Shown here: piece by piece, positions 6,417 to 44,854 of the stretch
Position numbering within the stretch: the stretch's first letter is position 1
How the letters are laid out: each line of letters begins with the position of its first letter
From: Lachnospiraceae bacterium
Lineage (GTDB): Bacteria > Bacillota > Clostridia > Lachnospirales > Lachnospiraceae
Direction of reading: 5' to 3'
Assembly: GCA_017450065.1 (NCBI GenBank)
Contig: JAFSYI010000061.1
Coordinates: forward strand, 56,849-120,848
Length of the DNA stretch: 64,000 bases
Notes under the pieces: model-generated
The model's input: the letters and a program-made list of their open reading frames with translations, nothing else
Database searches by the model: none
Told to the model about the DNA's origin: nothing
Position numbers and translations under genes: made by a program

Positions 6417-7568
6417 ATGCATATAGATGAAATGATAGTTGAAGCGCAGAACAGATTTATTGAGGAGTGTTGGAAGCATTTTCGAGATTTTGCTTCAAAG
6501 ACAGAGAATTATAATATTTTTATTTATGGTTCAGGAATTTATGGAAGGTTCCTATTTAACGCACTAACTGATATTGGTTTAGGGAAATCAATAAAAGCTT
6601 TTTTAAATGATTTCGCAAATGAGCAGGAGATAGTATTGGGAAGACCTGTGCAAAAACCGTCAGAGGTAAGTTTGAATTCAGATGATGATATAGTTGTAGT
6701 TGGTATACAAGATAATGGAAGCATTATAGAATTTTTGGAAAGAAGCAATATACGATATATTTCAGCTGATTATGTTCAATGGTTTTACCAGAATAATTTG
6801 ATGTATACTGTTTATCGTTGTATTGAAGTAAGCAGTATTACCGATATGGTATTTAAAATTGATTTTTACTATAGAAATATGTATGGAAAGGACAAAGAAA
6901 TATTAGATTTATATGATGAACCATTATCAAAAGAAATTATAAAAAATAGATTGCTTTTTTATAGAACGGGTGATTGCAGTTATATAGAATCAACCGTAAA
7001 GAATTATACAGAGTATTTCCATGAAGAGTATTTTCATATATCAGATAACGAAGTGTATGTAGATGTAGGGGCATTTGATGGGGATTCTATAGAAGCGTTT
7101 ACTAACTATACAGATGGAAAATATTCGAAGATAGTTGCCATTGAACCAGATAGGATGAATTATGAAAAGCTTGAAAAATCAGTTGGGAAATATCAAAACT
7201 GTATGTTGTTAAGGTGTGCAACCGGAGATTGTAATGATGTTGCCGTTTTTGAAGCAAAGGGCACAATGGGATCTTCATTAGGTGAAAATGGAGAAGAAGT
7301 TGAAATAAGAAAACTTGATGATATCTTGGAAGATACTCATCCTACTCTGATAAAAATGGATATTGAGGGTGCTGAATTTGATACATTAAAGGGTTCGGTG
7401 AAAATTATTATGAGAGACAAACCTAAACTTATTGTATGCTTATATCATAAAATGGAAGATATAATAAATATTCCTAGATTTATCCATGAAATTGTGCCTG
7501 AATATAAGTTTAAAGTAAGACAGCATTCTAATACAATGTGGGATACTGTCCTTTATGCTGAAGTATAA
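6417..7568 (+). CDS. FkbM-family methyltransferase with N-terminal Rossmann-like domain
   Basis: A 383-residue protein. Residues ~35-125 form a nucleotide-binding-like domain (IYGSGIYGRF and DDIVVVGIQ strands) of the kind often fused to FkbM enzymes in polysaccharide loci. The C-terminal part is the FkbM SAM-dependent methyltransferase: SAM-binding VDVGAFDGDS at ~215-224, 'AIEPD', then LDD and IKMDIEGAEF at ~312-320. FkbM enzymes usually O-methylate sugars or polyketides, which suggests a methylated residue in the surface glycan. It lies 15 bp downstream of the GNAT gene with the same codon style. The acceptor cannot be told from sequence. Confidence 0.88.
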   Translation: MHIDEMIVEAQNRFIEECWKHFRDFASKTENYNIFIYGSGIYGRFLFNALTDIGLGKSIKAFLNDFANEQEIVLGRPVQKPSEVSLNSDDDIVVVGIQDNGSIIEFLERSNIRYISADYVQWFYQNNLMYTVYRCIEVSSITDMVFKIDFYYRNMYGKDKEILDLYDEPLSKEIIKNRLLFYRTGDCSYIESTVKNYTEYFHEEYFHISDNEVYVDVGAFDGDSIEAFTNYTDGKYSKIVAIEPDRMNYEKLEKSVGKYQNCMLLRCATGDCNDVAVFEAKGTMGSSLGENGEEVEIRKLDDILEDTHPTLIKMDIEGAEFDTLKGSVKIIMRDKPKLIVCLYHKMEDIINIPRFIHEIVPEYKFKVRQHSNTMWDTVLYAEV

Positions 7569-7601: not shown

Positions 7602-7844
7602 ATGTCAAATTTAGAGAAGTACATCAACGCATTTGTAGAAGGACTTGAGATTGATCAGGAGTTGGTAAAAGAAGGACTGGAGTACCAGGCAATTCCTCAG
7701 TGGGATTCGGTAGGGCATATGGGACTTATAGCTGCATTGGAGGATGCCTTTGATATCATGATGGATACGGATGATATTATCGATTTCAGTTCTTACGAGA
7801 AGGGTATGGAGATATTATCGAAGAATTACGATATAGAGTTCTGA
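7602..7844 (+). CDS. Acyl carrier protein
   Basis: An 80-residue acidic helical protein with the phosphopantetheine attachment motif WDSVGHM; the modified residue would be S36. Length and charge are normal for a free-standing ACP. The ribosome binding site AAGGAG precedes the ATG by 9 bases. It stands 15 bp before an AMP-forming ligase gene, so the ligase most likely loads this carrier. Position in a sugar cluster rather than with fab genes argues for a dedicated carrier. Whether the cargo is a fatty, hydroxy or amino acid is not visible. Confidence 0.9.
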   Translation: MSNLEKYINAFVEGLEIDQELVKEGLEYQAIPQWDSVGHMGLIAALEDAFDIMMDTDDIIDFSSYEKGMEILSKNYDIEF

Positions 7845-7859
7845 ACCAAGGAGCCGGTC

Positions 7860-9275
7860 ATGTGGGATTTCAGGCAGTATGGAGATAATACCGCTATCAT
7901 AGCTGATGATGCTACACAGCTTACATATGTGGATTTAATAAAGGTGATCGAAGACATGGGCAATGCTGTTTACGGCAGGTGCCTTGTTTTCTGTCTATGC
8001 CGTAATGAAGCAGGTGCTGTTGCAGGATATGCAGCATTTATTGAAAACAAGGTGGTGCCGGTTCTTCTTAATGCCGGGATGGATAGGGAGTTGCTTGATA
8101 ACTTCCTGAACATTTATAGACCATCATATCTTTGGGTACCTTCAGATATGGAAGATATATTTGAAGGTTTTGGTGCTGTTTATTGTGCATATGGATATTC
8201 TCTGCTTAAGAATCAAATTGAACCGGATTATGAACTTAATCCTGAGCTATGCCTTCTATTGACCACATCAGGCTCAACGGGAAGTCCCAAGCTGGTAAGG
8301 CAGAGCTATAAAAATGTCAGCTCAAATGCCAGGGCAATTGTTGAATACCTTGAGCTTTCATGTGATGAAAGACCTATCACAACGCTTCCTATGAACTATA
8401 CCTATGGTTTGTCGATAATTAACAGTCATTTCATGGTGGGAGCGACACTGCTGGTGACTGAAAACGGACTTATGCAGAAGGGATTCTGGAACTTTTTTAA
8501 GGAACAGGGTGCAACATCCTTCGGAGGTGTTCCATATACATATGAAATGCTGGATAAGCTTAGATTCTACAGGATGGATCTGCCGTCATTAAGATATATA
8601 ACACAGGCGGGGGGAAAGCTCACGCCGAGGCTTCACGAGAAATTTGCTGAATATGCACAGGACAAAGGAATCAAGTTCTTTGTTATGTATGGACAATGTG
8701 AAGCGACCGCACGAATGGGATATCTTCCGGCAGATAAGGCAGTCAAGAAATGCGGCTCTATGGGAATTGCTATACCGGGCGGACATTTCATGCTTATAGA
8801 TGATAAAGGCCGTGAAATAAATGAACCTGATATTACAGGTGAGCTTGTATATGAAGGCGATAATGTTACTCTTGGATATGCGGAATGTACGGATGATCTG
8901 ATTAAGGGCGATGAAAGAAACGGAGTTCTCTATACCGGTGATATGGCCCGCTTTGACAAGGATGGTTATTACTATATAGTCGGACGAAGAAAAAGGTTTC
9001 TTAAGATATACGGGAACCGTGTTAATCTGGATGAGATTGACAGGATGATAAAGAGCCATTTTGATGGTATTGAAGCTGCATGCTCCGGTGTGGATGATCA
9101 TTTGACGATTTTCCTTACGAATGAGAAACTTGCAGAGGAAGTAAAGGCATATGTTGTTGATAAGACGGGTTTGAATTCTGTTGCTTTCAATACCTTTATT
9201 CTGAATGAAATACCCAAGAATGATTCCGGAAAGACATTGTACAGGGAGCTCGAAAAATATTTGGAATTGAATTAA
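7860..9275 (+). CDS. AMP-forming acyl/aminoacyl ligase (ANL superfamily)
   Basis: A 471-residue adenylating enzyme. The P-loop-like motif TTSGSTGSPK starts at T135. 'YGQCEATARMGYLP' supplies the ATP-binding/GxTE-like region. 'YTGDMARFDKDGYYYIVGRRKRFLKIYGNR' supplies the hinge, and 'PKNDSGKTLYRE' near the C-terminus includes the catalytic lysine. The N-terminal subdomain is shorter than usual (most acyl-CoA synthetases are ~520-560 aa), as in stand-alone acyl-ACP or amino-acid ligases. It starts 15 bp after the ACP gene, so ACP loading is the likely role. The acid cannot be predicted with confidence. Confidence 0.88.
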   Translation: MWDFRQYGDNTAIIADDATQLTYVDLIKVIEDMGNAVYGRCLVFCLCRNEAGAVAGYAAFIENKVVPVLLNAGMDRELLDNFLNIYRPSYLWVPSDMEDIFEGFGAVYCAYGYSLLKNQIEPDYELNPELCLLLTTSGSTGSPKLVRQSYKNVSSNARAIVEYLELSCDERPITTLPMNYTYGLSIINSHFMVGATLLVTENGLMQKGFWNFFKEQGATSFGGVPYTYEMLDKLRFYRMDLPSLRYITQAGGKLTPRLHEKFAEYAQDKGIKFFVMYGQCEATARMGYLPADKAVKKCGSMGIAIPGGHFMLIDDKGREINEPDITGELVYEGDNVTLGYAECTDDLIKGDERNGVLYTGDMARFDKDGYYYIVGRRKRFLKIYGNRVNLDEIDRMIKSHFDGIEAACSGVDDHLTIFLTNEKLAEEVKAYVVDKTGLNSVAFNTFILNEIPKNDSGKTLYRELEKYLELN

Positions 9276-9321
9276 CAGAAGTATTTGAATAAATTAAAAG
9301 TACTAAGGAGACATGGTCGGT

Positions 9322-11124
9322 ATGATAAGAGTTGCGGATTATATTATGCAAAGATTGGTACAGGAGGATGTAAAACATTTGTTTTACGTACCCGGTGGTC
9401 AGTGCGTATATTTAATGGATGCCTTAAGGCGTAATGAGGAGCTTAAGGGAATTGGAACACATCATGAACAGGCTGCAGCAATGGCGGCCACTGCATATGC
9501 GCAGTATAAGAACGGCTTAGGTGCATGCCTTGTGACAACAGGCTGCGCGGGAACAAATACCATGACCGGAGTTTTACACGCATACCAGGACAGTCTGCCT
9601 GTTATCTTTATATCGGGACAACAGAATATTAACCAGACGACCCATGCTTCAGAACTTTCATTAAGACAGATAGGTGTGCAGGAGGCTGATATAGTCCGTC
9701 TGGTTACTCCCATAACAAAGTATGCTGCCATGTTGACAGATCCGATGCAGGTGGCTTATGAACTGGATAAAGCTATTCATGAAGCGTTATCAGGAAGACA
9801 GGGACCTGTATGGATTGATGTTCCGCTGGAAATCCAGAATGCAATGGTAAATGAGGATAAGCTGCAAAGATATGAAGAGACACAAAGTGCTCCGGGATTA
9901 TCATGTGATGATATTGATTATATTAAGACAGCTTTGAAAGAGGCGGAAAGACCCGTGATCTTTTCCGGACACGGTGTTATGAGCGCAGGCGCAAAAGAGG
10001 AGCTACGTCTCTTTGCTGAGAAGAATAATCTGCCTGTTGTTTTAACCAGGTATTCGGTCGATCTTCTTCCTTATGATCACCCGTTAAATATGGGAGTAGT
10101 CTGCTCGGTTAGTGCAAACAGATATGCTAATTTTATAATTCAGAATTCGGATGTGGTTCTGAATATAGGTGGAAGGTTATCCATTGATACTACCGGACCT
10201 GAACAGAAGCAGTTCGCAAGGGAGGCTAAGGTTATAGTCATTGATATAGACGAAGAGGAGCATAAGAAGGACGGTGTTAAGATTGAGAAGCTTATAGAAG
10301 CCGATGCCAGAGAGGCTCTTCTTGGATTGCTTGAAGAGAAGGTATCCTGTGATACTTCAGAATGGATTGAAAAATGTAACCATTGGAAGAGCATTTTTCC
10401 TGATTATTCCGGAACGGAGACTGCAAATGGATTTATTGATTTCAAATACTTCCTCGATAAGCTCTCATGTGTGATTCCGCATAATACTACGGTGCTGGCA
10501 GATGCAGGTATGACAGGGGCCTGTGTATCAGCCAACTGTCATTTATATGAAGGTGGCAGGATGATTCATGCATATGCACAGGGCGAGATGGGATTTACTC
10601 TCCCGGGTGCATTCGGAGCAGCATGTGCAGATTCGGATAAGACTGTAGTAGCTATTGCCGGTGATGGTTCTGTTATGATGAATCTTCAAGAACTGCAGAC
10701 ATTGGTACGCAATCAGTTCAATGTTAAGCTGATTATCAATAATAATGACGGCTACTCGGGAGTAAGGCATGGACAGAAGGCTCACTTCAGAGGTAAATCA
10801 ATCGGAACGGATCCTTCTAACGGGCTTGATTTTCCGGATTTTGGCAAGGTGGCAGAAGCCTTTGGAATACCTTATACAGAGATTAGGAAAATTAATGAGC
10901 TGGATGATTGCCTTAAGAATGTTTTTGAGGAAAAGGGCCCTCATATATGCGAAGTATTTACCGATCCGGATCAGTTCGATCTTCACAATGCACTGGTAAA
11001 ATATGATAAGAGGAAATTCGGGTTCAGACCCATTGAGGATCAATCGCCGTTTATTGACAGGGATGTATTCTTTGCTGAGATGATCATAAAGCCGCTGGAA
11101 ACAAGCTATGGAGAACCTGTTTAA
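9322..11124 (+). CDS. Thiamine-diphosphate enzyme, acetolactate-synthase-like
   Basis: About 600 residues with the three-domain POX/ALS layout. The N-terminal PYR domain has the catalytic glutamate at E49 (THHEQAAA). The C-terminal domain has the ThDP/Mg motif GDGS at ~447-450, ending at N-N-D-G. ATG 9313 is only two bases from AAGGAG, while ATG 9322 is eleven away and begins the family-typical MIRVADYI, so I chose 9322. It differs clearly from the housekeeping IlvB at 44855. Such enzymes decarboxylate a 2-oxo acid and ligate the acyl anion to a carbonyl acceptor. In sugar clusters they build branched sugars or modify side chains. Its immediate downstream neighbour is an aldolase-type enzyme. 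Confidence 0.88.
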   Translation: MIRVADYIMQRLVQEDVKHLFYVPGGQCVYLMDALRRNEELKGIGTHHEQAAAMAATAYAQYKNGLGACLVTTGCAGTNTMTGVLHAYQDSLPVIFISGQQNINQTTHASELSLRQIGVQEADIVRLVTPITKYAAMLTDPMQVAYELDKAIHEALSGRQGPVWIDVPLEIQNAMVNEDKLQRYEETQSAPGLSCDDIDYIKTALKEAERPVIFSGHGVMSAGAKEELRLFAEKNNLPVVLTRYSVDLLPYDHPLNMGVVCSVSANRYANFIIQNSDVVLNIGGRLSIDTTGPEQKQFAREAKVIVIDIDEEEHKKDGVKIEKLIEADAREALLGLLEEKVSCDTSEWIEKCNHWKSIFPDYSGTETANGFIDFKYFLDKLSCVIPHNTTVLADAGMTGACVSANCHLYEGGRMIHAYAQGEMGFTLPGAFGAACADSDKTVVAIAGDGSVMMNLQELQTLVRNQFNVKLIINNNDGYSGVRHGQKAHFRGKSIGTDPSNGLDFPDFGKVAEAFGIPYTEIRKINELDDCLKNVFEEKGPHICEVFTDPDQFDLHNALVKYDKRKFGFRPIEDQSPFIDRDVFFAEMIIKPLETSYGEPV

Positions 11125-11136
11125 GGATATTGGAAG

Positions 11137-12756
11137 ATGAGCAAACAGATTGAATTACTGGACTGTACATTAAGAGATGGAGCGTATATAACAGGATCGT
11201 ATTTTGGTGTTTCTGCAATTAAAGGGATAATTAAGAATATGCAGAATGCCGGAGTTGAGATACTTGAGTGCGGCTGGCTAAAGGATGCTCCTTACAAGGA
11301 AGGCACTTCATATTATCATGTCCCGGATGATATCATTCCATATATGGCTGATAAGAAACATGACGTCACCTATGTTGCGATGATAGATTACAACAGATAT
11401 GATACGGAGAACCTTCCCGAATATGATGGACGATCAATAGATGCCATAAGAGTTGTATTTCCCCACGGGCATCATGAAGAGGGGATTTCTATAGGAAGAA
11501 GGATACGTGAGAAAGGGTATAAAGTATTCTTTCAGGCAGCAAACACGCTTGCATATTCAGAGGAAGACCTGATCGCACTGGCCAAATGTATGAATGAATT
11601 CAAACCGGTAAGTGTCTCTATAGTTGATACGTTCGGAGCCATGTTCGAGGATGATCTTGATCGTATTGTTTCAATCCTTGATAACCGACTTGACCCGGAG
11701 ATTAAGCTAGGATTTCACTCACATAATAACCAACAGCTTGCATTTTCACTGGCTATGCATTTTGTTGAAAAAGTGACAAGGGGCAACCGAGGCTGTATTG
11801 TGGATTCTACTCTGTGCGGCATGGGCAGAGGAGCCGGAAATGCGACTACTGAGCTCGTAGCCAGCTATTTAAACAGAAGACAGCACGGATGCTATGACAT
11901 GAACGTGATCATGGATGCGATAGATAAATATATGCAGGAGTTCCAGGAAAAATATACATGGGGATATTCTACTGCGTATTTTATTGCCGGAATGTATCAG
12001 TGTCATGTGAACAATATAGCGTATCTTCAGAAAAGTCATAGAACCAATTCAAGGGATATGAGGAACATAATCAAATCTCTGACTGTGGAGCAGAGAAGAC
12101 AGTACGATTATGATATCCTGGAAGAGAAATATATGGAGAACCAGAGCAGGCACGTAGATGATGAAGCAGGTGTTTCTTTTCTTAAAGAAGATCTGTCGAA
12201 TAGAACGGTACTCCTGCTTTGCCCGGGTAATTCTCTTAATTTGGAAAAGACAAGGATCAAGGGTTATATTGATGAGCATTCTCCCGTTGTGGTGGGAGTC
12301 GGGGCATTGCTGCCTTATTACAGCTACGATTATGTGTTTTTTTCCAATCATGCCAGATATGAATATGCCAGAGAGGTATATGCTGATAAGGCGGAATCGG
12401 TAAAGAAGATATTGCTGTCGAATATAAAAACCGAGGCCGAAGAGAACGAGATAATCATTAATTTCGATTCGGTTGTAAAGCGGGGATGGAAATATTTCGA
12501 TAATCCGGCAATCTGTTGCATGAGACTTATGGGATGGCTGGGTGTTAAAGTGCTTAAGATAGCAGGCTTTGATACCTTTGGACCACGATATAATGAGAGC
12601 TATGCAGATGCTTCCCTTCCTTCTGTCAGTACAGAGGATTACGCTGAGATTAACAGGGAGCTTAAGCTTATGTACAGGGATTTCAATGATACCTATGGTG
12701 CTAAGATGAATATTGAGTTCCTGACGGATAGTGAGTTCGCGGACAACTGCGTTTGA
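11137..12756 (+). CDS. HMGL-family aldolase/acyl-transferring enzyme with extra C-terminal domain
   Basis: A 539-residue protein. Residues 1-~290 are an HMGL-like TIM barrel (HMG-CoA lyase, isopropylmalate/homocitrate synthase, 4-hydroxy-2-oxovalerate aldolase family). It shows DCTLRDG at 9-15, GFHSHNN at 192-198 (metal-binding histidines) and STLCGMGRGAGN. Residues ~345-539 are not part of that family: 'TVLLLCPGNSLNL', 'VVVGVGALLPYYSYDYVFFSN' and a C-terminal 'IAGFDTFGPRY' look like a second nucleotide- or sugar-binding Rossmann-like domain reminiscent of DUF115-type proteins. It starts 12 bp after the TPP gene, so the two likely act in sequence. I infer cleavage or formation of a C-C bond on a 2-oxo acid; direction and substrate are unknown. 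Confidence 0.8.
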   Translation: MSKQIELLDCTLRDGAYITGSYFGVSAIKGIIKNMQNAGVEILECGWLKDAPYKEGTSYYHVPDDIIPYMADKKHDVTYVAMIDYNRYDTENLPEYDGRSIDAIRVVFPHGHHEEGISIGRRIREKGYKVFFQAANTLAYSEEDLIALAKCMNEFKPVSVSIVDTFGAMFEDDLDRIVSILDNRLDPEIKLGFHSHNNQQLAFSLAMHFVEKVTRGNRGCIVDSTLCGMGRGAGNATTELVASYLNRRQHGCYDMNVIMDAIDKYMQEFQEKYTWGYSTAYFIAGMYQCHVNNIAYLQKSHRTNSRDMRNIIKSLTVEQRRQYDYDILEEKYMENQSRHVDDEAGVSFLKEDLSNRTVLLLCPGNSLNLEKTRIKGYIDEHSPVVVGVGALLPYYSYDYVFFSNHARYEYAREVYADKAESVKKILLSNIKTEAEENEIIINFDSVVKRGWKYFDNPAICCMRLMGWLGVKVLKIAGFDTFGPRYNESYADASLPSVSTEDYAEINRELKLMYRDFNDTYGAKMNIEFLTDSEFADNCV

Positions 12757-12800
12757 TAGAACATTAACTGAGAATGGATCATTGACAACAAAATGAAGAT

Positions 12801-12840
12801 AATGTATTGTTTTAATATCACATTAAAGCAATACATTTCT
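12801..12840 (+). terminator. Probable rho-independent terminator after the aldolase gene
   Basis: A 16-bp stem with one G-U-type mismatch: AATGTATTGTTTTAAT (12801-12816) pairs with ATTAAAGCAATACATT (12822-12837) across a 5-base loop, followed by TCTT. It is AT-rich, so termination would be weak. It lies 45 bp after the stop at 12756, ending the ACP-to-aldolase gene group before the transposase-family gene. Confidence 0.5.
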
Positions 12841-12948
12841 TGACATATATAGCATATTTCGGCTGATCTTCGGTGATAAACCGTCCGTTACGAAATCGTT
12901 TGCTTTAAAATACAAGTATTAACAGATTAAGTGAACGGAGGAATTAAC

Positions 12949-13995
12949 ATGGAAGATAACAGAATGAACATTGAAGAACAGTTGTTTGAATCAGGACTTT
13001 CTGAAGAGAGAAGACAATGGCACAGAGAAGTCAGTAGTGGTGAACGCCTGGCGGATATCTATTATGATACCATAGCAAAGCACGTATTTTCTCCGGATAT
13101 GTTTCCTGAACGTATGGATTTCATTCTGCATAGAACGATGCGTGACCAATCTATTAGTGTGGAACACTCTGCTGCTAATGAGACATATCTTCAAAATGTC
13201 TATGCAAAGAGAACAATAAGCGATTTACCTGCATGGCTTAAGGATCACAGGCTTGTTGATATAGAAATACAGAGGATTGCCCAAGAGTATGTATTTGATA
13301 GAGCGGAAATCTATGCATCAAATATGCTTCTTTTGCAATATTCGGTCGAAGAAGGTAAACCTAAGAGTAGTCTGAACTATGAGAATATCAATAATGCAAT
13401 CATTATTGTGATGATGGTTAACAGTCCGAGAATTTTCAAGGAATTCAGGTCGGATAGGTACATACACAGAATAACAACGGCAATAGCTGACTCGGGTATT
13501 GAGTTCTCAATGAGAAAGCATATTGTGTTTGTGCAGCTTGACAAAGCTCTTGAACTGTATTTGAACGACACGTATAATGAAGATGAAGATGTAGAACTTC
13601 TTAAAATGTTCTCTCTTATAGCAGATATCAATAATGAGAAGGTAATAAAAGAAACAAGAGGAAATGAATTATTTGATGGCATACGTGAAGATGTTTACAG
13701 ATTCACCAGAAGTCTGGAGGTGCAACAGATGATTTTGGCAGAAGATTTGGCGATGTTAGATTGGAATTCATACAAAGAACAGAGTAAACGAGAAGGCAGA
13801 CAAGAAGGAATACAAGAAGGCAGACAAGAAGGAATACGAGAAGGCAGACGAGAAGGCAAGCAAGAGGTAAATGATTTGTATAGGTGGCTGCTGGAACATG
13901 GACGCGAACAAGATATTAAAAAGGCAATAAGTGACAATGAATATATGGAAAAGCTTACAGAAGAGTATAGAGCATATCTCAGTAGCAGCACTTGA
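12949..13995 (+). CDS. PD-(D/E)XK nuclease family transposase-like protein (Rpn-like)
   Basis: A 348-residue protein of the PF12784-type family. The N-terminus matches 'SGERLADIYYDTIAKHVFSPDMFP', and the nuclease core shows LVDIEIQR near residue 112 (E-x-Q form of PD-(D/E)XK). The C-terminal region holds tandem QEGR/REGR units typical of these proteins, with the matching 24-bp DNA repeat at ~13789-13866. GGAGG stands 8 bases before ATG 12949; the GTG at 12931 has no suitable site and was rejected. The gene is separated from both polysaccharide groups by hairpins, so it is probably a mobile or passenger gene. Family members are linked to recombination, not to a proven transposition mechanism. 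Confidence 0.85.
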   Translation: MEDNRMNIEEQLFESGLSEERRQWHREVSSGERLADIYYDTIAKHVFSPDMFPERMDFILHRTMRDQSISVEHSAANETYLQNVYAKRTISDLPAWLKDHRLVDIEIQRIAQEYVFDRAEIYASNMLLLQYSVEEGKPKSSLNYENINNAIIIVMMVNSPRIFKEFRSDRYIHRITTAIADSGIEFSMRKHIVFVQLDKALELYLNDTYNEDEDVELLKMFSLIADINNEKVIKETRGNELFDGIREDVYRFTRSLEVQQMILAEDLAMLDWNSYKEQSKREGRQEGIQEGRQEGIREGRREGKQEVNDLYRWLLEHGREQDIKKAISDNEYMEKLTEEYRAYLSSST

Positions 13996-14042
13996 TAATG
14001 CAGAGAAACAGAAAAGTTATATGGGATGACATTTCAAAATAT

Positions 14043-14165
14043 ATAGTGAACGAATTTAATTCGTTCACTTTGCGCCGATTGCGAGGCATCGAAGATGCCC
14101 ATCCTATCGCAATCGTGTGCATCAATTTGGTATAGTAAACGAAATTATTTATTTCGTTTACTATA
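14043..14165. repeat. Hairpin-rich spacer with terminal inverted repeats
   Basis: Three inverted repeats are stacked in 123 bp. A 25-bp palindrome (AGTGAACGAATT / AATTCGTTCACT, 14045-14069) is followed by a nested hairpin (GATTGCGA 14077-14084 with TCGCAATC 14107-14114, inside it GGCATC/GATGCC), then a 15-bp stem (14131-14145 with 14151-14165). The outer ends ATAGTGAACGAA and TTCGTTTACTAT are themselves inverted repeats with one mismatch. It lies directly between the transposase-family gene and the LuxE-LuxC operon. It may be a small mobile-element remnant, a terminator pair, or a leader structure for the downstream operon. Confidence 0.6.
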
Positions 14166-14190
14166 GTTAATGTTTAGGAAAGAAGGTTAT

Positions 14191-16542: not shown

Positions 16543-17909
16543 GCTTTCTAAAGAAAATTTTCACAGAAGATTCATCAAACGGATTCATATGGAATGCGAT
16601 AGGCGGGAGCCTGTTTGCAGGGCAGTCGGTCATTCTGCTGTTCCTTTGTGCAAGATTCTATGATCAGGAAACAGCCGGTGTCGTATCCATATCGTATGCG
16701 GTAGCGAATCTTATATATATGATAGCTCTTTATGGCGTGAGGAACTTTCAGGTTACCGATACCAAAGAGACGTACAGATTTACGGACTATCTGGTACTAA
16801 GAGCATTGTCAATACTGTTTGCAGTGGCAATATTACTATCGTATATGGTGCTGATGTATAAGTATAATGGATATTCGGGTCATAAATGCGCGGTTGTTAT
16901 AGCAATGACAGTGCTGAAGATGGTGAATGCAGGCGAGGATGTGATCGTCGGCAGGCTTCAGCAGAGAGGATTCTTCGTAGTGGGTGCCAGGATGGGTGCA
17001 GTAAGGGAATTCATTATGCTTACAGCTGTCTGTATCCTGATATGCATGAAGTTTGATATTGTTGCTGCTCTTATATGCGGCACGGTTATAAGTCTTGTAA
17101 TGGAGCTGTTCCTTGTATCTAAGTCAAGGAACTACCTGAGATCCGACATGCAAGATACCGGTGCTTCGGATGTTGCTGATGTGTATGCACATGATATGGA
17201 TGAAGCCGGTATGATCATAACCGGTGGAGACACTGTATCAGGCAGAGCCGGATTTGACAGAACGCGGCTGCCTGGTCTCCTTAGGAGCTGTACTCCTCTG
17301 TGCGTGAGTACAGTACTTGCAATATATTTAAGCAATATTCCAAAGTATGTTACGGACTGGTATCTGGACGAGATCACGCAGGCGATTGTGGGATACCTTA
17401 TTTTACCCGTGTTTACTATCGCACTGCTTAACCAGTTCATATACACACCTTTTATAAAGGGACTCGGTGATCTGTGGAATGCCGGGAACAGACGTGGGTT
17501 TATAAACAGAGTAGCGCTGCAGTCGGTGGTGATCATTTCAAGCGCCGGGATCATATTGCTGATTTCGTATTGGATAGGAATACCGCTTCTGTCAATGGTG
17601 TACAATATTGATTTAAGGCCCTATATGAAGGAGTTCGTGCTTCTTCTGGTGGGCGGTGGACTATATGCGCTTGAATATTATCTTATAATTCCTGTCACTG
17701 TAATGCATGAACAGGTTAAAATCGCATTAAGCTACATGGCAGCTATAGTTATGTCGCTGGCGGTGCAGAAAAGTCTGGTTGCCGGATTCGGGTTGACGGG
17801 TGTGGGAGTTCTGTATATTTTAGTCAATCTGATCATTACGGTATTACTTGTTTTTGTTATCTGTAAGAAATATAGGAGTGTAAGTGCAGAGGAGCAGGTT
17901 GATGGCTGA
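16539..17909 (+). CDS. Polysaccharide flippase, Wzx/MATE-like
   Basis: A 456-residue integral membrane protein with about 12 predicted helices, the MVF/Wzx layout. It begins 'NGFIWNAIGGSLFAGQSVILLF', typical of polysaccharide-biosynthesis exporters. A soluble-looking insertion lies near residues 200-240. Its ATG overlaps the LuxE-LuxC stop (ATGA). Wzx proteins move undecaprenyl-pyrophosphate-linked repeat units across the membrane, so this cluster probably makes a polymer assembled in the Wzy manner. No Wzy polymerase was recognised inside the window. Confidence 0.82.
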   Translation: MSFLKKIFTEDSSNGFIWNAIGGSLFAGQSVILLFLCARFYDQETAGVVSISYAVANLIYMIALYGVRNFQVTDTKETYRFTDYLVLRALSILFAVAILLSYMVLMYKYNGYSGHKCAVVIAMTVLKMVNAGEDVIVGRLQQRGFFVVGARMGAVREFIMLTAVCILICMKFDIVAALICGTVISLVMELFLVSKSRNYLRSDMQDTGASDVADVYAHDMDEAGMIITGGDTVSGRAGFDRTRLPGLLRSCTPLCVSTVLAIYLSNIPKYVTDWYLDEITQAIVGYLILPVFTIALLNQFIYTPFIKGLGDLWNAGNRRGFINRVALQSVVIISSAGIILLISYWIGIPLLSMVYNIDLRPYMKEFVLLLVGGGLYALEYYLIIPVTVMHEQVKIALSYMAAIVMSLAVQKSLVAGFGLTGVGVLYILVNLIITVLLVFVICKKYRSVSAEEQVDG

Positions 17910-18660
17910 AAGACTGTTATCAGGTAAAAATATTATAATAACCGGAGCAACAAGGGGAATAGGAAATACGATCCTTAAGTTGTTTGCGGAGAACGGTGCC
18001 AATATATGGGCATGTGCGAGGACGGTTAATGAAGAGTTCGAAAGAGAGATCGGGGAGCTTGCAGAGACATATAATGTCTGGATCAGACCGGTATACTTTG
18101 ATCTTTCTGACGAAGATGATATAAAGAGAGGTATAAAGGAGATCATCTCTGCCAAACAGAGCATAGATGTACTGGTAAATAACGCAGGTATGGCATATGG
18201 CGGCCTTTTTACCATGACTCCGATGTCAAAGCTTAAAGAGGTGTTCCAGATCAATTACTTTGCCCAGATACAGGTCATGCAGTCGGTACTCCGGGCTATG
18301 ATGAAGCAAAAGAGCGGATGTATAATTAATATGGCTTCGATAGGAGGCATTGAGACCGCACCGGGATATCTGGCTTACGGCTCGAGCAAGGCGGCACTTA
18401 TTTATGCGACCAAATCTGCTTCGCATGAGGTCGGACAATACGGTATAAGGGTTAATGCAATAGCTCCGGGACTTACACAGACGGATATGGGCGGATACAA
18501 GCCTGATGAAGAGATCCGGAAGATACTGGACAGGAGCAGCCTTCACAGAATGGCTGAGCCTGTAGAGATAGCCAACTGCGCGCTGTTTCTTGCTTCAGAC
18601 AGGTCTTCCTTTATTACAGGTCAGGTAATGATTGCCGATGGAGGTAGAATATGTGTATAG
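17902..18660 (+). CDS. SDR-family oxidoreductase, second copy
   Basis: A 252-residue classical SDR starting at ATG 17902, which has GAGGAG upstream and overlaps the flippase stop; the GTG at 17884 lies before that site and was not used. Motifs are TGATRGIG at 14-21, NNAG, Y159 and K163 in YGSSK, and a C-terminal ADGG. It resembles the SDR at 2348 in several loops (GANxxA, FDLSxE, 'GPG/APGLTxTDMG'). The following transketolase gene overlaps its stop by 10 bases. A keto group made by transketolase or the aldehyde made by LuxC are candidate substrates; this is inference from order. Confidence 0.9.
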   Translation: MAERLLSGKNIIITGATRGIGNTILKLFAENGANIWACARTVNEEFEREIGELAETYNVWIRPVYFDLSDEDDIKRGIKEIISAKQSIDVLVNNAGMAYGGLFTMTPMSKLKEVFQINYFAQIQVMQSVLRAMMKQKSGCIINMASIGGIETAPGYLAYGSSKAALIYATKSASHEVGQYGIRVNAIAPGLTQTDMGGYKPDEEIRKILDRSSLHRMAEPVEIANCALFLASDRSSFITGQVMIADGGRICV

Positions 18661-19493
18661 ATACTTCGGCTGAAAATGCTTCAAGGCTTAGGGATATGGC
18701 CGTAAGGATGCGGAAAATGGCGCTTGATATGGCGCTTTCTGCGGGAGCCAAGGGAGCTCATATCGGCGGAGGATTTTCCTGTATGGAAATTATGGCTGTA
18801 TTGTACGGGGAGGTTCTGCGTCTTGATCCCGCGAATCCGCTCTCACCTAAGAGAGACAGACTTCTGATAAGCAAGAATCATTGTACGATCGCACACTTTC
18901 CGGCCCTGGTTGAGAGAGGCTATATAAAGGAAGAAGAGCTTGCTTCATATACAGTGAACGGAAGCCGGTTGATCGGATATCCTTATGATCCTGAGATCGG
19001 ACTTGAATACTCGGGAGGAAGCCTGGGAATGGCAATATCTGTAGGCGTGGGGCAGGCTCTGAGTGCCAAAAAGAAGGGGCTTGATTACAGGGTTTATGTG
19101 CTGATGGGCGACGGTGAGCTGAATGAAGGTTCTATATGGGAGGCCTTTATGTCGGCAAAGCAGTTCGGACTTGACAATCTGACAGTTATAATAGACAGGA
19201 ATCATCTTTGCTATGACGGTACTACAGAGGATGTAATGCAGCTTGGAAACCTTACGGCTAAAATGGAGTCCTTTGGATTTAATACGATTAACTGTAACGG
19301 ACATGATATTAAGGAGCTGCTGAATGCATTTGTGTGTATTTCAAATAACAGTCCCAATGCTGTTATCTGTGATACGGTTAAGGGGAAGGGACTATCCTTT
19401 GCGGAAGGCAGGCCGGAATGGCATCAGAAAGCGATTACCGGGGAACAGTACAATATTGCGCTTTCCGATCTTATGGAGGGTAAAGTAATATGA
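18651..19493 (+). CDS. Transketolase, N-terminal (ThDP-binding) subunit
   Basis: A 280-residue protein corresponding to the PP domain of transketolase, with the ThDP/metal motif GDGELNEGSIWEA at 153-165 and the substrate-region histidines typical of the family ('KNHCTIAHFPAL'). GGAGG lies 6 bases before the ATG, which overlaps the SDR stop. Split transketolases are common in Clostridia and Archaea, and the C-terminal half follows directly. Presence inside this operon argues for a dedicated ketol (two-carbon) transfer in the glycan precursor pathway rather than the pentose phosphate pathway. Confidence 0.92.
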   Translation: MCIDTSAENASRLRDMAVRMRKMALDMALSAGAKGAHIGGGFSCMEIMAVLYGEVLRLDPANPLSPKRDRLLISKNHCTIAHFPALVERGYIKEEELASYTVNGSRLIGYPYDPEIGLEYSGGSLGMAISVGVGQALSAKKKGLDYRVYVLMGDGELNEGSIWEAFMSAKQFGLDNLTVIIDRNHLCYDGTTEDVMQLGNLTAKMESFGFNTINCNGHDIKELLNAFVCISNNSPNAVICDTVKGKGLSFAEGRPEWHQKAITGEQYNIALSDLMEGKVI

Positions 19494-20461
19494 ATATAAC
19501 AAAGGGCAAGGTAAGATCATGGGCAAGACTGGGACAGAGGGCGACTTTTTTTGCCAATGCCATGCCGGAAATAGCAAAGGAAAATGATGATCTGATGGTC
19601 CTTACGGCTGATCTTGCGCAGCTTTCGAATCTTGGAAGGTTTGCTGAACAGTATCCCGATAAGTTCTTAAATGTTGGGATAGCGGAGCAGAATATGATAG
19701 GCGTGGCCGCAGGTTTGGCGATGGAGGGTTATACGGTATTTGCCACTACCTATGCATCATTTATTGCGGTTAGGGATCTGGAGCATGTAAGGCAGCATCT
19801 TTCCAATCTGAATCTTAATGTTAAGCTTATCGGGACAGCTGCAGGCGTTGTGGCCGCCCGTTCCGGAGTGGCTCATTGGGCAAGTGAAGATATTACATTT
19901 ATGCGGGCTCTTCCGGGCATGATGGTCATGAGTGCGGCTGACTGTGTTGAGGCTTATGAAATGGCTTATTATGCGGCAGAACACAAGGGACCTGTGTATA
20001 TAAGACTCAATGGGGTTCCTGACTGTCCTGCCGTATATGATGAGAATTATGTTTTCGAACCGGAGAAGCTGAGTATAATAAAGACCGGAAATGATGTGGC
20101 TCTTATTGGTACGGGCCTGATGGTTAATGAGGCGTTGAAAACGGCGGATATTCTGGAGCAAAACGGTATTTCATGTACGGTTGCAAATATGCATACGATA
20201 AAGCCGATAGATAAGGATGGCCTGAATAAGCTATTCAGAGAGCACAGATTTATCGTTACAATGGAGGAGCATAGTATAATAGGTGGAATGGGAAGCGCCG
20301 TGGCAGAGTATAAAGCTACGCTTGATAACATGCCGCGTCAGATATTCATAGGATTTCCGGACTCATTTACCAAGGCCGGAACACCTCAGTATATATGGGA
20401 ACAGTTTGGAATAACTGCGCCGCAGGCTGCTGAGAGAATAAAGAAGGAGCTCGGATTCTAG
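19490..20461 (+). CDS. Transketolase, C-terminal (Pyr plus C) subunit
   Basis: A 323-residue protein holding the Pyr domain with the catalytic-type glutamate E66 in NVGIAEQNM, then the C-terminal domain ('EEHSIIGGMGSAVAE'). It overlaps the N-terminal subunit gene by ATGA, so equimolar translation is expected; the two should form the active heterotetramer. DXS-like proteins were considered, but the split arrangement and 'TYASFIAVRDLEHVRQHL' fit transketolase. Donor and acceptor are unknown. Confidence 0.92.
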   Translation: MNITKGKVRSWARLGQRATFFANAMPEIAKENDDLMVLTADLAQLSNLGRFAEQYPDKFLNVGIAEQNMIGVAAGLAMEGYTVFATTYASFIAVRDLEHVRQHLSNLNLNVKLIGTAAGVVAARSGVAHWASEDITFMRALPGMMVMSAADCVEAYEMAYYAAEHKGPVYIRLNGVPDCPAVYDENYVFEPEKLSIIKTGNDVALIGTGLMVNEALKTADILEQNGISCTVANMHTIKPIDKDGLNKLFREHRFIVTMEEHSIIGGMGSAVAEYKATLDNMPRQIFIGFPDSFTKAGTPQYIWEQFGITAPQAAERIKKELGF

Positions 20462-20462
20462 A

Positions 20463-21539
20463 ATGATCGAGGATTTCTATTCATGCGGAACGTATGATCT
20501 TAATAAAGTTGAGAAGGACATACTTGTTACGAAGGAATTATTGGAGCTTACGGAGCATCACAGGACTGAATGCAGGGCATATGACAATATACTAAGCGCA
20601 ATGAAGTATGATCCTGAGAAGGTTGAGCATGCCTGCGATATTCCCTTTTTCCCGGTTCGCCTTTTTAAGGAGCTGGAGCTTAAGAGTATTCCAAAGGAAG
20701 AGGTCTTCAAGGTCATGACTTCTTCGGGAACTACCGGTCAGGCTGTATCAAGGATATTTGTCGATAAGGAAACGGCGATGATACAGCAGAAGGTAATGAT
20801 CAGGATACTGAGTGATTATCTTGGTAAACAGAGACTTCCGATAATGGTTGTCGATACTCCTTCTGTCATGAAGGATCGTAAATCTTTCACGGCACGGGGT
20901 GCGGCTGTCATAGGTCTGCAGGTCATGTCAAGAGGAACGACGTATGTTCTTAATGATGATATGAGCCTCAACATGGATGCGTTTAATGAGTTCATGGAAA
21001 AGAACGGAAACGGTAAGTTCCTGATCTTTGGTTTTACGTTCATGGTATGGCAGCATCTGTATGAGGCTTTACGTTGCTCAGGAAAAAAGTCCGATCTGTC
21101 TAACGGATGGCTCATGACAGGTGGCGGCTGGAAGAAGCTGATATCGGATTCGGTGTCTCAGGAGGAATTCCATAAACGGATGACGGAAACCTTCGGTATT
21201 GTACATTTTCTGGATCATTATGCGATGGTTGAACAGACAGGCTGCATATATGCAGAATGTGAATGCCACCATCTTCATGCGAGTATTTATTCCGATGTAT
21301 TCGTGCGTGATCCAAGAGATTTTTCTTTGTGTAAGAACGGGGAAGAAGGTATAATCCAGACAGTATCCGTTCTTCCGCATTCCTATCCCGGACATTCGCT
21401 TCTGACGGAAGATAAGGGTATAATTCTGGGCGAGGATGACTGTCCCTGCGGAAGAAAGGGAAAGTATATAAAAATCCTCGGCAGGATTCAAAGCGCGGAG
21501 TTAAGGGGGTGCAGCGATACATATGCATCAAGGTATTGA
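20463..21539 (+). CDS. LuxE-like acyl-protein synthetase, stand-alone
   Basis: A 358-residue protein closely matching the N-terminal half of the fusion at 14191: TSSGTTGQAV from T86, 'KFLIFGFTFMVWQ', the Cys-rich 'GCIYAECECHHLH' and 'DDCPCGRKGKYIKILGR', ending in 'RGCSDTYASRY'. It starts one base after the transketolase stop. Its stop overlaps the next gene by 17 bases in another frame. So the cluster has two LuxE copies, one fused to LuxC and one separate. They presumably activate two different acids or form one mixed complex. Confidence 0.87.
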   Translation: MIEDFYSCGTYDLNKVEKDILVTKELLELTEHHRTECRAYDNILSAMKYDPEKVEHACDIPFFPVRLFKELELKSIPKEEVFKVMTSSGTTGQAVSRIFVDKETAMIQQKVMIRILSDYLGKQRLPIMVVDTPSVMKDRKSFTARGAAVIGLQVMSRGTTYVLNDDMSLNMDAFNEFMEKNGNGKFLIFGFTFMVWQHLYEALRCSGKKSDLSNGWLMTGGGWKKLISDSVSQEEFHKRMTETFGIVHFLDHYAMVEQTGCIYAECECHHLHASIYSDVFVRDPRDFSLCKNGEEGIIQTVSVLPHSYPGHSLLTEDKGIILGEDDCPCGRKGKYIKILGRIQSAELRGCSDTYASRY

Positions 21540-22728
21540 TAGAATTCAATTTCTTACCGGTAATCCGGAAATGCTGGAAGCGATCCCGGATATACTTGCG
21601 CGGGAGACATGGAGTGAACATACCGTTGACTTCCTTGGAGCTTTCTCGAGGAATCTTCTTAAGAATCCTGCTACAAAGAGCTTTGTTGATGTTACGGCCT
21701 ATGCTTTCTGGATCAGGAACGCTTCACTTAGACAGATTAAGGAGCATTATTATCCGAACGTGAACGGAAAGATGGGAAGAGGCATGGCTTTTCATATTGC
21801 GCCGTCTAATGTTCCGGTGAACTTTGCCGTATCGTTTACATCTTCGCTTCTGGCAGGAAATATAAATGTTGTCAGGGTTTCAAACAAACATTTCGAGCAG
21901 GTGGATATTATTGTTAATGCACTAAAGAATACCTTTGCCGAAGGCTTTCAGGATATGGAACAGTATCTGATTATCATAAGATACGATCATGATGACGAGA
22001 TCACCCGTTACATATCATCTATGTGTGATGTCAGGATCATCTGGGGAGGCGACAGGACGATCTGCGCTGTCCGTGAGGCGAAGCTTCCGCCGAGAGCGAT
22101 TGAAATGTCTTTCGCGGACAGACACAGTATTGCACTGCTTGATGCGGATGCAGTCATGAAGACGGACATTGATAAGCTGGCTGAAGGATTTTATACCGAT
22201 ACATATTATATTGATCAGAATGCCTGCTCTTCGCCGAGGATGGTTATATGGTTCGGATCGCATGTTGAAGAAGCAAAAGAGAGATTCTGGACTGCGGTTG
22301 CAAAGCTTGTACAAAGAGATTATGAGTTCAGAGATATACAGGCGATAGATAAGCTTGAGCAGTTCTGCAGACTGGCATCGGAAAACAGAAATATTACTAT
22401 GGAAGACGGTGATAATCTGGTGATGAGGATAAAGGTTGATAAGCTTGATGCCGGTATCATGGAGTATAAGCTTGGAGGCGGATACTTTTTTGAATATGAT
22501 GCGAATGATCTGACGGATATATCGCCCATATTGGATAAGGCATGCCAGACTGTTTCTTATTTTGGTATTGATGCACGGGAAATACAACGCTTTGTTTTGG
22601 ACGGTGGATTCCGCGGCTGCGACAGGATAGTTCCTGTGGGTAAGACCATGGATCTGACCTTTAAATGGGATGGATATGATATGATAGAAACCATGTCAAG
22701 ATATGTTTATTGTCCGGAATATAAATAG
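21523..22728 (+). CDS. LuxC-like acyl-CoA/acyl-enzyme reductase, stand-alone
   Basis: A 401-residue reductase of the aldehyde-dehydrogenase fold. 'GRGMAFHIAPSNVPVN' forms the cofactor-side loop and C235 in DQNACSSPR is the catalytic cysteine. It matches the C-terminal half of the fusion at 14191 throughout. Translation is probably coupled to LuxE, because the ATG lies 17 bases inside the LuxE gene. Expected reaction: thioester-bound acyl plus NADPH to aldehyde. The last gene of the tightly packed operon; a 305-bp spacer with a MITE follows. Confidence 0.87.
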   Translation: MHQGIDRIQFLTGNPEMLEAIPDILARETWSEHTVDFLGAFSRNLLKNPATKSFVDVTAYAFWIRNASLRQIKEHYYPNVNGKMGRGMAFHIAPSNVPVNFAVSFTSSLLAGNINVVRVSNKHFEQVDIIVNALKNTFAEGFQDMEQYLIIIRYDHDDEITRYISSMCDVRIIWGGDRTICAVREAKLPPRAIEMSFADRHSIALLDADAVMKTDIDKLAEGFYTDTYYIDQNACSSPRMVIWFGSHVEEAKERFWTAVAKLVQRDYEFRDIQAIDKLEQFCRLASENRNITMEDGDNLVMRIKVDKLDAGIMEYKLGGGYFFEYDANDLTDISPILDKACQTVSYFGIDAREIQRFVLDGGFRGCDRIVPVGKTMDLTFKWDGYDMIETMSRYVYCPEYK

Positions 22729-22756
22729 TCTCTTGGCTTAACAGCCTTTATTTGTC

Positions 22757-22988
22757 GTAACTATTCAGAACAGCACAAATATTTTAAAATATGACTCTCA
22801 TGCTTGCATGAAAGAGGCATGTTTTATAAATATTTGTATTTGAGCAGAACACTTAGCGAGGTTTTTTCGAGCTTAGTGTGAGCCATGCATATATACTTAA
22901 TGAGGTATTTTCGAATTTAGTATATATGCTGGATGAATCCAAAACAGCGAAAAATATGAAGTATTTTGAGCCTGTTCTGAATAGTTAC
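22757..22988. mobile_element. 232-bp MITE-like element with perfect 17-bp TIRs and 8-bp TSD
   Basis: The ends GTAACTATTCAGAACAG (22757-22773) and CTGTTCTGAATAGTTAC (22972-22988) are perfect inverted repeats. They are flanked by the direct repeat TATTTGTC (22749-22756 and 22989-22996), an 8-bp target-site duplication. No ORF fits inside. The interior has two related hairpins in tandem: 22849-22857 with 22871-22879, and 22887-22901 with 22915-22929. Both share an ACTTA..GAGGT.TTTTCGA..TTAGT core. This fits a non-autonomous element moved by a transposase coded elsewhere. It separates the LuxC gene from the aminotransferase gene, and its right end lies 45 bp before that ATG. Confidence 0.85.
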
Positions 22989-23033
22989 TATTTGTCAATA
23001 TAGAATAATTAAGGAAGTAGCGAGGAAACAGAT

Positions 23034-24197
23034 ATGAATGAAGCATACAAGACATACGATATACTGTTTAATGTACCGCCTTTTACGGGTAATGAATTCA
23101 AATATATGCAGGAAGCCGTAGATAATCAGAAAATATGCGGCGACGGGCCTTTTACAAAGAAATGCGATGAGTGGATGGAGAAGAGGTTTGGTGCCAAGAA
23201 GGCGATGCTTACCACCAGCGGTTCCAGTGCATTGGATATGGCGGCACTGCTATGTGGCATAGAGCCGGGTGATGAGGTTATCCTGCCATCATATACGTTT
23301 TCATCTACCGCCAATGCATTCGTACTTGCCGGAGCCGGGCTGGTTTTTGTTGATATCCGTCCTGATACCATGAATATGGATGAGACTAAGATTGAGGAAG
23401 CCATCACGGATAAAACAAAGGTTATTTGTGTGGTTCATTACGCCGGTGTTGCCTGTGATATGGATGCAATAATGAGCATTGCAGCCAGGCATGGCCTGAT
23501 GGTTGTCGAGGATGCCGCACAGGCCGTAATGAGCACTTATAAGGGCAGAGCTTTGGGTACAATAGGCGATTTTGGCTGCTTCTCTTTCCATGAAACAAAG
23601 AATTATTCCATGGGTGAAGGCGGGGCTATTCTTATAAATAATGAGAAGTATATAGAAAGGGCCGAGATCCTGCGTGAGAAGGGCACCAACAGAAGTAAGT
23701 TCTACAGGGGACAGGTTGCGAAGTATAACTGGGTTGATTTTGGCGACAGCTATTTACAGTCAGATCTTAATGCGGCATATTTGTGGGCTCAGCTTGAGAG
23801 GGCGGATGAAATAAACAATAACCGTCTTGAAACATGGAATTCTTATATGGATGCCTTCAAGTCCTATGCGGACAGCGGTAAGATTACTTTGCCGGCTGTT
23901 CCGGACGGATGTGTTCATAACGCTCATATGTTTTATATTAAATTTGCCGATCTTGAGACAAGGCAGAATTATATTGCATTCATGAAACAGAACAGGATAA
24001 TGTGTGTGTTTCATTATGTACCGCTTCATTCGGCTCCCGCGGGGCTTAAGTTTGGCAGGTTTAACGGCACGGATGAATATACGACTGCTGAGAGCGACAG
24101 GCTGGTGAGGCTTCCGATGTATTATAATATGGATAAGAAGGATACAGAAAAAGTCATAGAGAAAACGATTGAATTTCTTGAGGAACATGATGTATAG
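23034..24197 (+). CDS. wecE: WecE/RffA-like dTDP-4-oxo-6-deoxyglucose transaminase (DegT family)
   Basis: A 387-residue PLP-dependent DegT/DnrJ/EryC1/StrS aminotransferase. Much of it follows E. coli RffA/WecE closely: 'CGDGPFTKKCDEWMEKRFG', 'PGDEVILPSYTFSSTANAFV', 'VHYAGVACDMDAIM', 'EDAAQAVMSTYKGRALGTIG', K189 in SFHETKNYS as the Schiff-base lysine, 'REKGTNRSKFYRGQV' and 'VFHYVPLHSAPAG'. The expected reaction is transamination of dTDP-4-dehydro-6-deoxy-D-glucose to dTDP-4-amino-4,6-dideoxy-D-galactose. The GNAT at 5685 is a candidate for the next step. RmlA/RmlB, which make the substrate, are not in the window. Symbol given by close recognition. Confidence 0.9.
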   Translation: MNEAYKTYDILFNVPPFTGNEFKYMQEAVDNQKICGDGPFTKKCDEWMEKRFGAKKAMLTTSGSSALDMAALLCGIEPGDEVILPSYTFSSTANAFVLAGAGLVFVDIRPDTMNMDETKIEEAITDKTKVICVVHYAGVACDMDAIMSIAARHGLMVVEDAAQAVMSTYKGRALGTIGDFGCFSFHETKNYSMGEGGAILINNEKYIERAEILREKGTNRSKFYRGQVAKYNWVDFGDSYLQSDLNAAYLWAQLERADEINNNRLETWNSYMDAFKSYADSGKITLPAVPDGCVHNAHMFYIKFADLETRQNYIAFMKQNRIMCVFHYVPLHSAPAGLKFGRFNGTDEYTTAESDRLVRLPMYYNMDKKDTEKVIEKTIEFLEEHDV

Positions 24198-44785: not shown

Positions 44786-44854
44786 CGGATTTTGATCTTT
44801 AAATACCCGGAGACGGTGCAAGAGTAAATCAAATTTTTAATTAAGGAGATGACT

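Follow-up and report, generated by a model that had tools for sequence, protein, structure and literature searches.

What does a surface-glycan cluster make when it carries, side by side, the acyl-reducing enzymes LuxE and LuxC, a split transketolase, an acetolactate synthase (ALS)-like carboligase and an aldolase? The question is raised by the window analysed here, a stretch of 64,000 nucleotides from a Lachnospiraceae bacterium (GenBank assembly GCA_017450065.1, contig JAFSYI010000061.1, positions 56,849 to 120,848), in which an operon-like cluster spans approximately positions 1-24,197. A first-pass annotation, made from the letters alone, had proposed that an acyl group is activated, reduced to an aldehyde, extended by carboligation and built into an exported glycan. 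This proposal is supported in outline by the linkage of the genes, by the conserved Lux cysteines and by a transketolase in which residues of the acceptor site are gone and the catalytic ones remain; where the cluster starts, how its product is exported and how the sugar is read all need correction. We estimate, with a probability of about 0.57, that the cluster makes a short polyhydroxylated acyl group, which would be put on the 4-amino group of dTDP-4-amino-4-deoxyfucose (dTDP-Fuc4N) and then on a cell-surface glycan or protein.

The genes of the cluster recur together well beyond this genome. Relatives of the window LuxC were found in 20 of 299 genomes of the family, and a LuxC family profile matched 4 of 37 genomes of the genus, the window's own genome being included in both counts. 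Scanning named genomes with a 20-row LuxE alignment gave at least 79 loci from Bacillota, Pseudomonadota, Spirochaetota, Synergistota and others. Our comparison set comprises 96 LuxE/LuxC loci (numbered with L), of which 17 were fetched by LuxC and 79 by LuxE, the latter ranked by their likeness to transketolase-linked LuxE. An AMP-forming ligase occurs in 88 of them, an acyl carrier protein (ACP) in 76, a short-chain dehydrogenase/reductase (SDR) in 69 and a WecE-like aminotransferase in 42, followed by a WecD-like gene (23), a thioesterase (23), a family 2 glycosyltransferase (GT2; 21), ALS (20) and NeuB (19); FabA-like genes (14), ketoacyl-ACP synthase III (KASIII; 11) and the HMGL aldolase (8, one weak) are rarer. 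Both transketolase halves, here called TKN and TKC, are present in 51 of the 96, a frequency biased upwards by the ranking of the LuxE loci, and for 51 of 55 TKC genes a Lux gene is found no more than 5 kb away. Where family loci were fetched with LuxC as the sole query (18 loci, L029-L046; 19 other positive genomes), six carry both halves. Since contigs are short and flanks end at 10 kb, all these counts are lower bounds; in L098, for example, TKN is present and no TKC passes the cut. Nine loci (L052, L054, L057, L060, L061, L064, L066, L068 and L112) hold a nearly complete window set, none with every gene inside the fetched stretch. The check for co-occurrence that had been suggested with the first-pass annotation thus finds the genes linked across phyla.

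Smaller versions of the set occur in the family of Treponema bryantii, where LuxE was found in 9 of 145 sampled genomes; eight regions from this family (L139-L146) lie outside the 96 loci. L144 holds ACP, AMP ligase, LuxE, LuxC, SDR, TKN and TKC, and L146 holds ACP, AMP ligase, LuxE, LuxC and an ALS-like open reading frame (ORF). L139-L143 all carry ACP and LuxE, three of them also LuxC, and none has such an AMP ligase or a transketolase.

The residues expected of working enzymes are conserved in the Lux proteins. GCSD is found in 116 of 116 LuxE rows, aligned to the cysteine of LuxE in structure 7xc6, and a (D/E)QxxC-type motif in 113 of 114 LuxC rows, likewise aligned to 7xc6, the sole miss being a truncated ORF. 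We take both cysteines to be the catalytic acyl-cysteines. The DS motif of the ACP is kept in 76 of 77 relatives. The window has two Lux pairs, and the second LuxE falls in a 29-row clade (SH-aLRT 99, quick tree) that contains all 22 TKC-preceded genes, four preceded by NeuB and three others. TKC stands directly upstream of 21 of the 28 such LuxE genes in relatives; NeuB takes its place in L031, L070, L073 and L080. The thioesterase (e.g. L031:9008-9715) lies directly upstream of LuxE in 17 loci and could fill the role of LuxD; none was seen among the cluster ORFs of the window.

The transketolase of these loci forms a lineage of its own. In a quick tree, a single clade of 58 rows (SH-aLRT 99) unites 55 of the 57 from cluster TKN, leaving out L045 and L124; it also takes in three rows from elsewhere, two of which share a contig with a LuxC gene, at distances of about 18 and 29 kb. 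We numbered transketolase residues against E. coli TktA. All 56 TKC rows keep E411, presumably the catalytic glutamate, and 54 keep H473; TKN retains H26 (57/57), H66 (56/57) and H261 (56/57); site H100 is histidine in 29 rows and tyrosine in 22, and site R520, which gave no confident alignment, was left unused. In contrast, H461 and D469, which we assume to contact the phosphate and the C2-hydroxyl of the acceptor, occur in none of the 56 cluster rows and none of the three outside rows grouping with them, versus seven of seven housekeeping copies. The loss of acceptor-site residues, with the thiamine diphosphate and catalytic residues kept, is what one would expect of an enzyme working on a different aldehyde, and points to a ketol transferase that is still active but uses another acceptor. 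If so, natural transketolases that seem to do without the usual acceptor would be added to those known.

These residues also bear on whether the enzymes simply serve central metabolism, in pentose phosphate and branched-chain amino acid pathways, as their family names would allow. The genome has a separate second transketolase, on contig C80, which is 44% identical to the cluster copy and groups with the rows called housekeeping. A housekeeping ALS likewise stands elsewhere in the window (44849-46537), beside ilvD and a leuB-like gene, with 29% identity to the cluster ALS. Together with the lost acceptor residues, these separate copies led us to reject a role in central metabolism, to which we give a negligible chance; the cluster enzymes are distinct paralogues.

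The two kinds of carboligase tend not to share the simpler loci. Of 69 loci with only the first type of LuxE, 28 have transketolase, 10 ALS, none both and 31 neither (Fisher p 0.004), and with at least 4 kb of flank the numbers are 22, 9, 0 and 20 (p 0.0065), in a test that was chosen post hoc; the LuxE types rest on scores, and the loci include related species, which are not independent. When loci with the second type of LuxE are added (all 96), the exclusivity disappears (p 0.80), since both enzymes are present in the large double clusters. We tentatively suggest, at somewhat less than even odds, a widespread and interchangeable logic for building many sugar acyl groups in the absence of fatty acid or polyketide synthesis, in which the aldehyde from LuxE and LuxC would pass to transketolase, to the ALS-like enzyme, perhaps to NeuB or HMGL, or to a plain reductase.

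Some YerE-like enzymes build branched sugars. The ALS-like protein, in which GDG and E52 (presumably the catalytic glutamate) are invariant in 12 rows, has a YerE-like enzyme as its closest solved relative: it matches JanthE (8rph) with 368 bits, compared with 221 bits for ALS, although JanthE has a CDG motif where the window protein has GDG. JanthE is described as coupling 2-oxo acids to ketones and as accepting 4-hydroxy-2-oxovalerate as donor. Because this donor belongs to the substrate or product class of the HMGL family, of which the neighbouring gene is a member, a relay from the HMGL aldolase to the ALS-like enzyme is possible by homology. HMGL co-occurs with ALS in 7 of 8 loci; its HxH and TLRDG motifs are invariant in seven rows, and its C-terminal extension (residues ~330-539) is conserved, with no Pfam match of its own and a weak SteA-like match (27.4 bits, cut-off 150).

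The kinship to JanthE, with its coupling of aldehydes and ketones, is also an argument for a branched or higher-carbon sugar as the product. The ALS-like enzyme would then add an acetyl or hydroxyacyl group to a keto-sugar in the manner of YerE, while LuxE/LuxC and transketolase would alter the chain; NeuB, present in 19 of the 96 loci and directly upstream of the second type of LuxE in four, would fit as well. We consider this unlikely. ALS was not seen in 76 of the 96 loci, such a sugar would need neither ACP nor AMP ligase nor an acyltransferase of the GNAT family, and in the glycan precedent for LuxE/LuxC, the tetronate of Vibrio cholerae O1, the product is an N-acyl group.

The remaining genes suggest what might receive the acyl group. 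WecE scores above its curated cut-off and RmlB passes its own cut-off in the same genome, so that dTDP-Fuc4N is likely to be made. A 20-row profile of the GNAT protein, window included, matches solved GNAT structures (best E 3.1e-6), and GT2 accompanies the WecD-like gene in 17 of 23 loci, compared with 4 of 73 others; for high-scoring WecE the counts are 12 of 23 versus 2 of 73 (raw counts in both cases, kinship ignored). The first-pass annotation had offered a chain-extended sugar as one possible product; the GNAT gene favours, though not decisively, an N-acyl group on Fuc4N. The recurrence of WecE, GT2 and WecD-like genes with the unit in many relatives also stands against a secreted small molecule with no glycan link, a reading that ACP, AMP ligase and reductase would otherwise allow, given their use for natural products, and that we regard as quite improbable.

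Export had been assigned to a Wzx-type flippase. The candidate membrane protein (16539-17909) does have 10 hydrophobic segments, but it has no MATE or Wzx match in Pfam (best DUF4229, E 0.15) and only chance-level PDB matches, which leaves that label unproven. An export route of the GT2-plus-YfhO kind seems at least as likely. Streptococcal protein glycosylation by PgfS, PgfM1 and PgfM2 likewise combines a GT2 with YfhO-type proteins, although the PgfS and PgfM2 scores of the window proteins are far below the curated cut-offs. Some relatives have, together with GT2, two small EamA-like proteins (in two examples, one is just under the Pfam cut-off), a pair that recalls ArnE/ArnF. A pilin or another surface protein may be the acceptor, given the prepilin-like genes upstream of the window. 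As a general rule, linkage to pilins was rejected: a rough scan found the prepilin motif in one of 99 relative loci (L117) and in the region upstream of the window.

The tetronate of V. cholerae O1 is a C4 group that acylates the amino group of perosamine. We assume that it is made by a malate route, with RfbK as the ACP and RfbL as the AMP ligase, and its aldehyde is probably reduced to an alcohol. VC0248-VC0252 are termed tetronate biosynthesis genes (PMC3441752), and VC0249 (RfbL), VC0250 (an iron-dependent alcohol dehydrogenase, Fe-ADH) and VC0251 (acyl protein synthase/acyl-CoA reductase) are tabulated in PMC9201469. The RfbK-O set of these genes contains, by name, LuxE plus LuxC together with RfbL, and directs an acyl group to a 4-amino-4,6-dideoxy sugar, as we propose here. 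The window shares the ACP, the AMP ligase and a LuxE and LuxC with acyl-cysteine motifs; where the tetronate set has Fe-ADH beside the reductase, presumably to reduce the semialdehyde, the window has instead a transketolase, SDRs, the ALS-like enzyme, the aldolase and a second LuxE/LuxC pair.

By this analogy, the cluster is best read as an enlarged tetronate-type pathway in which the aldehyde would be extended by carboligation instead of being reduced. LuxE would adenylate a small acid, malate-like as for tetronate, and keep it as a thioester, which LuxC would convert to the semialdehyde. The split transketolase would add a two-carbon ketol unit, an SDR would reduce the ketone, and the ALS-like enzyme and the HMGL aldolase could use pyruvate to extend the chain further or to branch it. 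The AMP ligase would load the remaining carboxylate onto the ACP, from which the WecD-like GNAT would transfer the acyl group to the dTDP-Fuc4N made by WecE; FkbM might O-methylate the acyl group. GT2 would then pass the sugar to polyprenyl phosphate, and YfhO would transfer it outside. A lactate/malate dehydrogenase-like gene lies within two genes of LuxC at L076:13121-14071 and in eight other loci, and might supply a 2-hydroxy acid.

Several observations weigh against this pathway. Two LuxE/LuxC pairs with one ACP and one ligase are left unexplained by a single linear route, and neither carboligase is present in 31 of 69 loci with only the first type of LuxE. The GNAT is only distantly WecD-like (scores in Table 1), 11 of 23 WecD-like loci are without a high-scoring WecE (some being cut by contig ends), and the solved structure closest to the ALS-like protein is that of a YerE-like enzyme. 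No Fe-ADH was found among the scanned cluster ORFs of the window. L145, from the family of T. bryantii, does carry AMP ligase, Fe-ADH and a LuxE-LuxC fusion in a row, which is the order of VC0249-VC0250-VC0251 outside Vibrio (matched by gene name and order); its ligase and Lux fusion are distant from those of the window (95 and 250 bits), no ACP was seen adjacent, and its Fe-ADH has no relative in the 96 loci. We had considered Fe-ADH as a frequent alternative and dropped it, as none was found in those loci.

The genes of the cluster are listed in Table 1. Those with a strand entry are all on the forward strand, and several neighbouring ORFs overlap by a few bases. The ORFs named in the first-pass annotation match the families given to them in Pfam and NCBIfam, the flippase excepted. 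Its cluster, placed at 7602-24197, begins further upstream and gains a second SDR, GT2, GNAT, FkbM and YfhO: SDR1, GT2 and GNAT are counted in the same unit because of the comparison with relatives, in which an SDR1-like gene lies near the second type of LuxC, ALS or GT2 (L052, L054, L057, L060 and L061), and FkbM and YfhO adjoin them. Its gene list was also incomplete, the Rpn-type gene having been left out. This gene is probably an insertion, and perhaps both genes that interrupt the cluster are.

Table 1. Genes of the cluster, with positions in the window and the matches on which their names rest.
Feature	Position	Strand	Matches and remarks
YfhO-type membrane protein, GT-C-like	5..2185	+	Pfam YfhO 7.3e-86; NCBIfam PgfM2 109.9 bits (cut-off 1500)
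SDR1	2348..3115	+	Pfam adh_short_C2
AAA-ATPase, weak PD-(D/E)XK match	3115-4716		interrupts cluster
GT2, putative ArnC/PgfS-like polyprenyl-phosphate sugar transferase	4735..5664	+	NCBIfam PRK10714 191.5 bits (cut-off 529); PgfS 172 bits (cut-off 500)
GNAT, WecD-like, proposed N-acyltransferase	5685..6401	+	NCBIfam PRK10975 27.9 bits (cut-off 219); no Pfam match of note
FkbM methyltransferase, O-methylation proposed	6417..7568	+	Pfam 1.3e-15
ACP	7602..7844	+	NCBIfam 21.9 bits (under cut-off 66); no Pfam match; DS-V motif
AMP-forming ligase	7860..9275	+	Pfam AMP-binding 5.2e-35
ALS-like thiamine diphosphate carboligase	9313..11124	+	nearest solved structure JanthE
HMGL/4-hydroxy-2-oxovalerate aldolase-like enzyme, C-terminal extension	11137..12756	+	Pfam HMGL 2.8e-18; PDB 3dxi 1.8e-24
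Rpn-type PD-(D/E)XK gene	12931..13995	+	Pfam PDDEXK_2 1.1e-7
LuxE-LuxC fusion, type 1	14170..16542	+	Pfam LuxE 1.7e-53, LuxC 8.1e-25; both cysteine motifs kept
Membrane protein, candidate flippase	16539..17909	+	10 hydrophobic segments
SDR2	17884..18660	+	Pfam adh_short_C2 1e-57
TKN	18651..19493	+	Pfam 2.2e-29; PDB 6yak split transketolase 1.4e-57
TKC	19490..20461	+	PDB 6yaj 1.4e-66; E411 kept, H461 and D469 lost (E. coli numbering)
LuxE, type 2	20463..21539	+	Pfam 2.1e-52; profile matches 7xc6 LuxE 1.2e-28
LuxC, type 2	21523..22728	+	Pfam 2.2e-27; 7xc6 LuxC 1.9e-10, Cys aligned
WecE, dTDP-4-keto-6-deoxyhexose aminotransferase	23034..24197	+	NCBIfam PRK11706 625 bits (cut-off 375)

The YfhO frame at 5-2185 is also open upstream of the window, into the end of the directly adjoining region (L190, the window's own contig, C24:40000-56848). 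There we found three prepilin-like genes, a DUF5057 protein, a first YfhO gene and an IS66 Orf2-like gene; the two YfhO genes are close together, with the IS66-like ORF in between. Elsewhere in the window, 52716-61013 encodes a protein of 2765 residues with Flg_new (List-Bact) repeats and Cthe_2159 domains.

If our reading is correct, a common gene module, found also in flagellin islands, would be tied to a chemistry and to searchable masses. By our arithmetic, the reduced product of a C4 acid and a C2 ketol would have the same mass as a residue of hexose (162.05) or deoxyhexose (146.06), for which mass spectrometry could mistake it. The flagellin of Treponema denticola is said to carry a nonulosonic acid with a 2-methoxy-4,5,6-trihydroxyhexanoyl group, which malate semialdehyde plus C2 might explain; a text search of open PMC papers brought up nothing on it. 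In Aeromonas, the flagellin glycan bears a 102 Da moiety reported as unknown (PMC7874193). Dihydroxybutanoyl, a possible product of the module in its simplest form, has this mass (102.03, our arithmetic), as do other compositions.

In luminescence, LuxE and LuxC use long-chain acids. Flagellin glycosylation islands of Aeromonas group II and of enterobacteria contain ACP, AMP synthetase, a FabG-like SDR, LuxE and LuxC (PMC7874193, PMC4875605), and the first of these papers proposes a liposugar component, while the second assigns the genes to fatty acid synthesis. That our cluster puts a fatty aldehyde or a lipid on the glycan nevertheless seems highly improbable: no ketosynthase was found among its scanned ORFs, KASIII is present in 11 of the 96 loci, transketolase, aldolase and ALS are ill-suited to a fatty chain, and the tetronate precedent is C4. 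The main text of the two papers mentions neither a transketolase nor an aldolase nor a thiamine enzyme, and a Kosakonia locus in our set (L128) carries both TKN and TKC. The window cluster itself is not linked to flagellin, the flagellin genes being on contigs C3 and C47 and the window on C24 of a draft genome that is 88% complete.

The first-pass annotation knew of no characterised pathway with this whole set of genes. Among the matches listed from open PMC papers, none describes a glycan cluster in which LuxE/LuxC stand together with a transketolase. Relative to the literature searched, novelty lies in the carboligases linked to the module, in a lineage of re-tooled transketolases and in how widely the system occurs, while the core is published for the Aeromonas and enterobacterial flagellin islands and much of it appears among the V. 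cholerae O1 tetronate genes. Since a core of ACP, AMP ligase, LuxE and LuxC is known, wholly or in large part, from these systems, the window cluster is best read as an enlarged form of a known kind.

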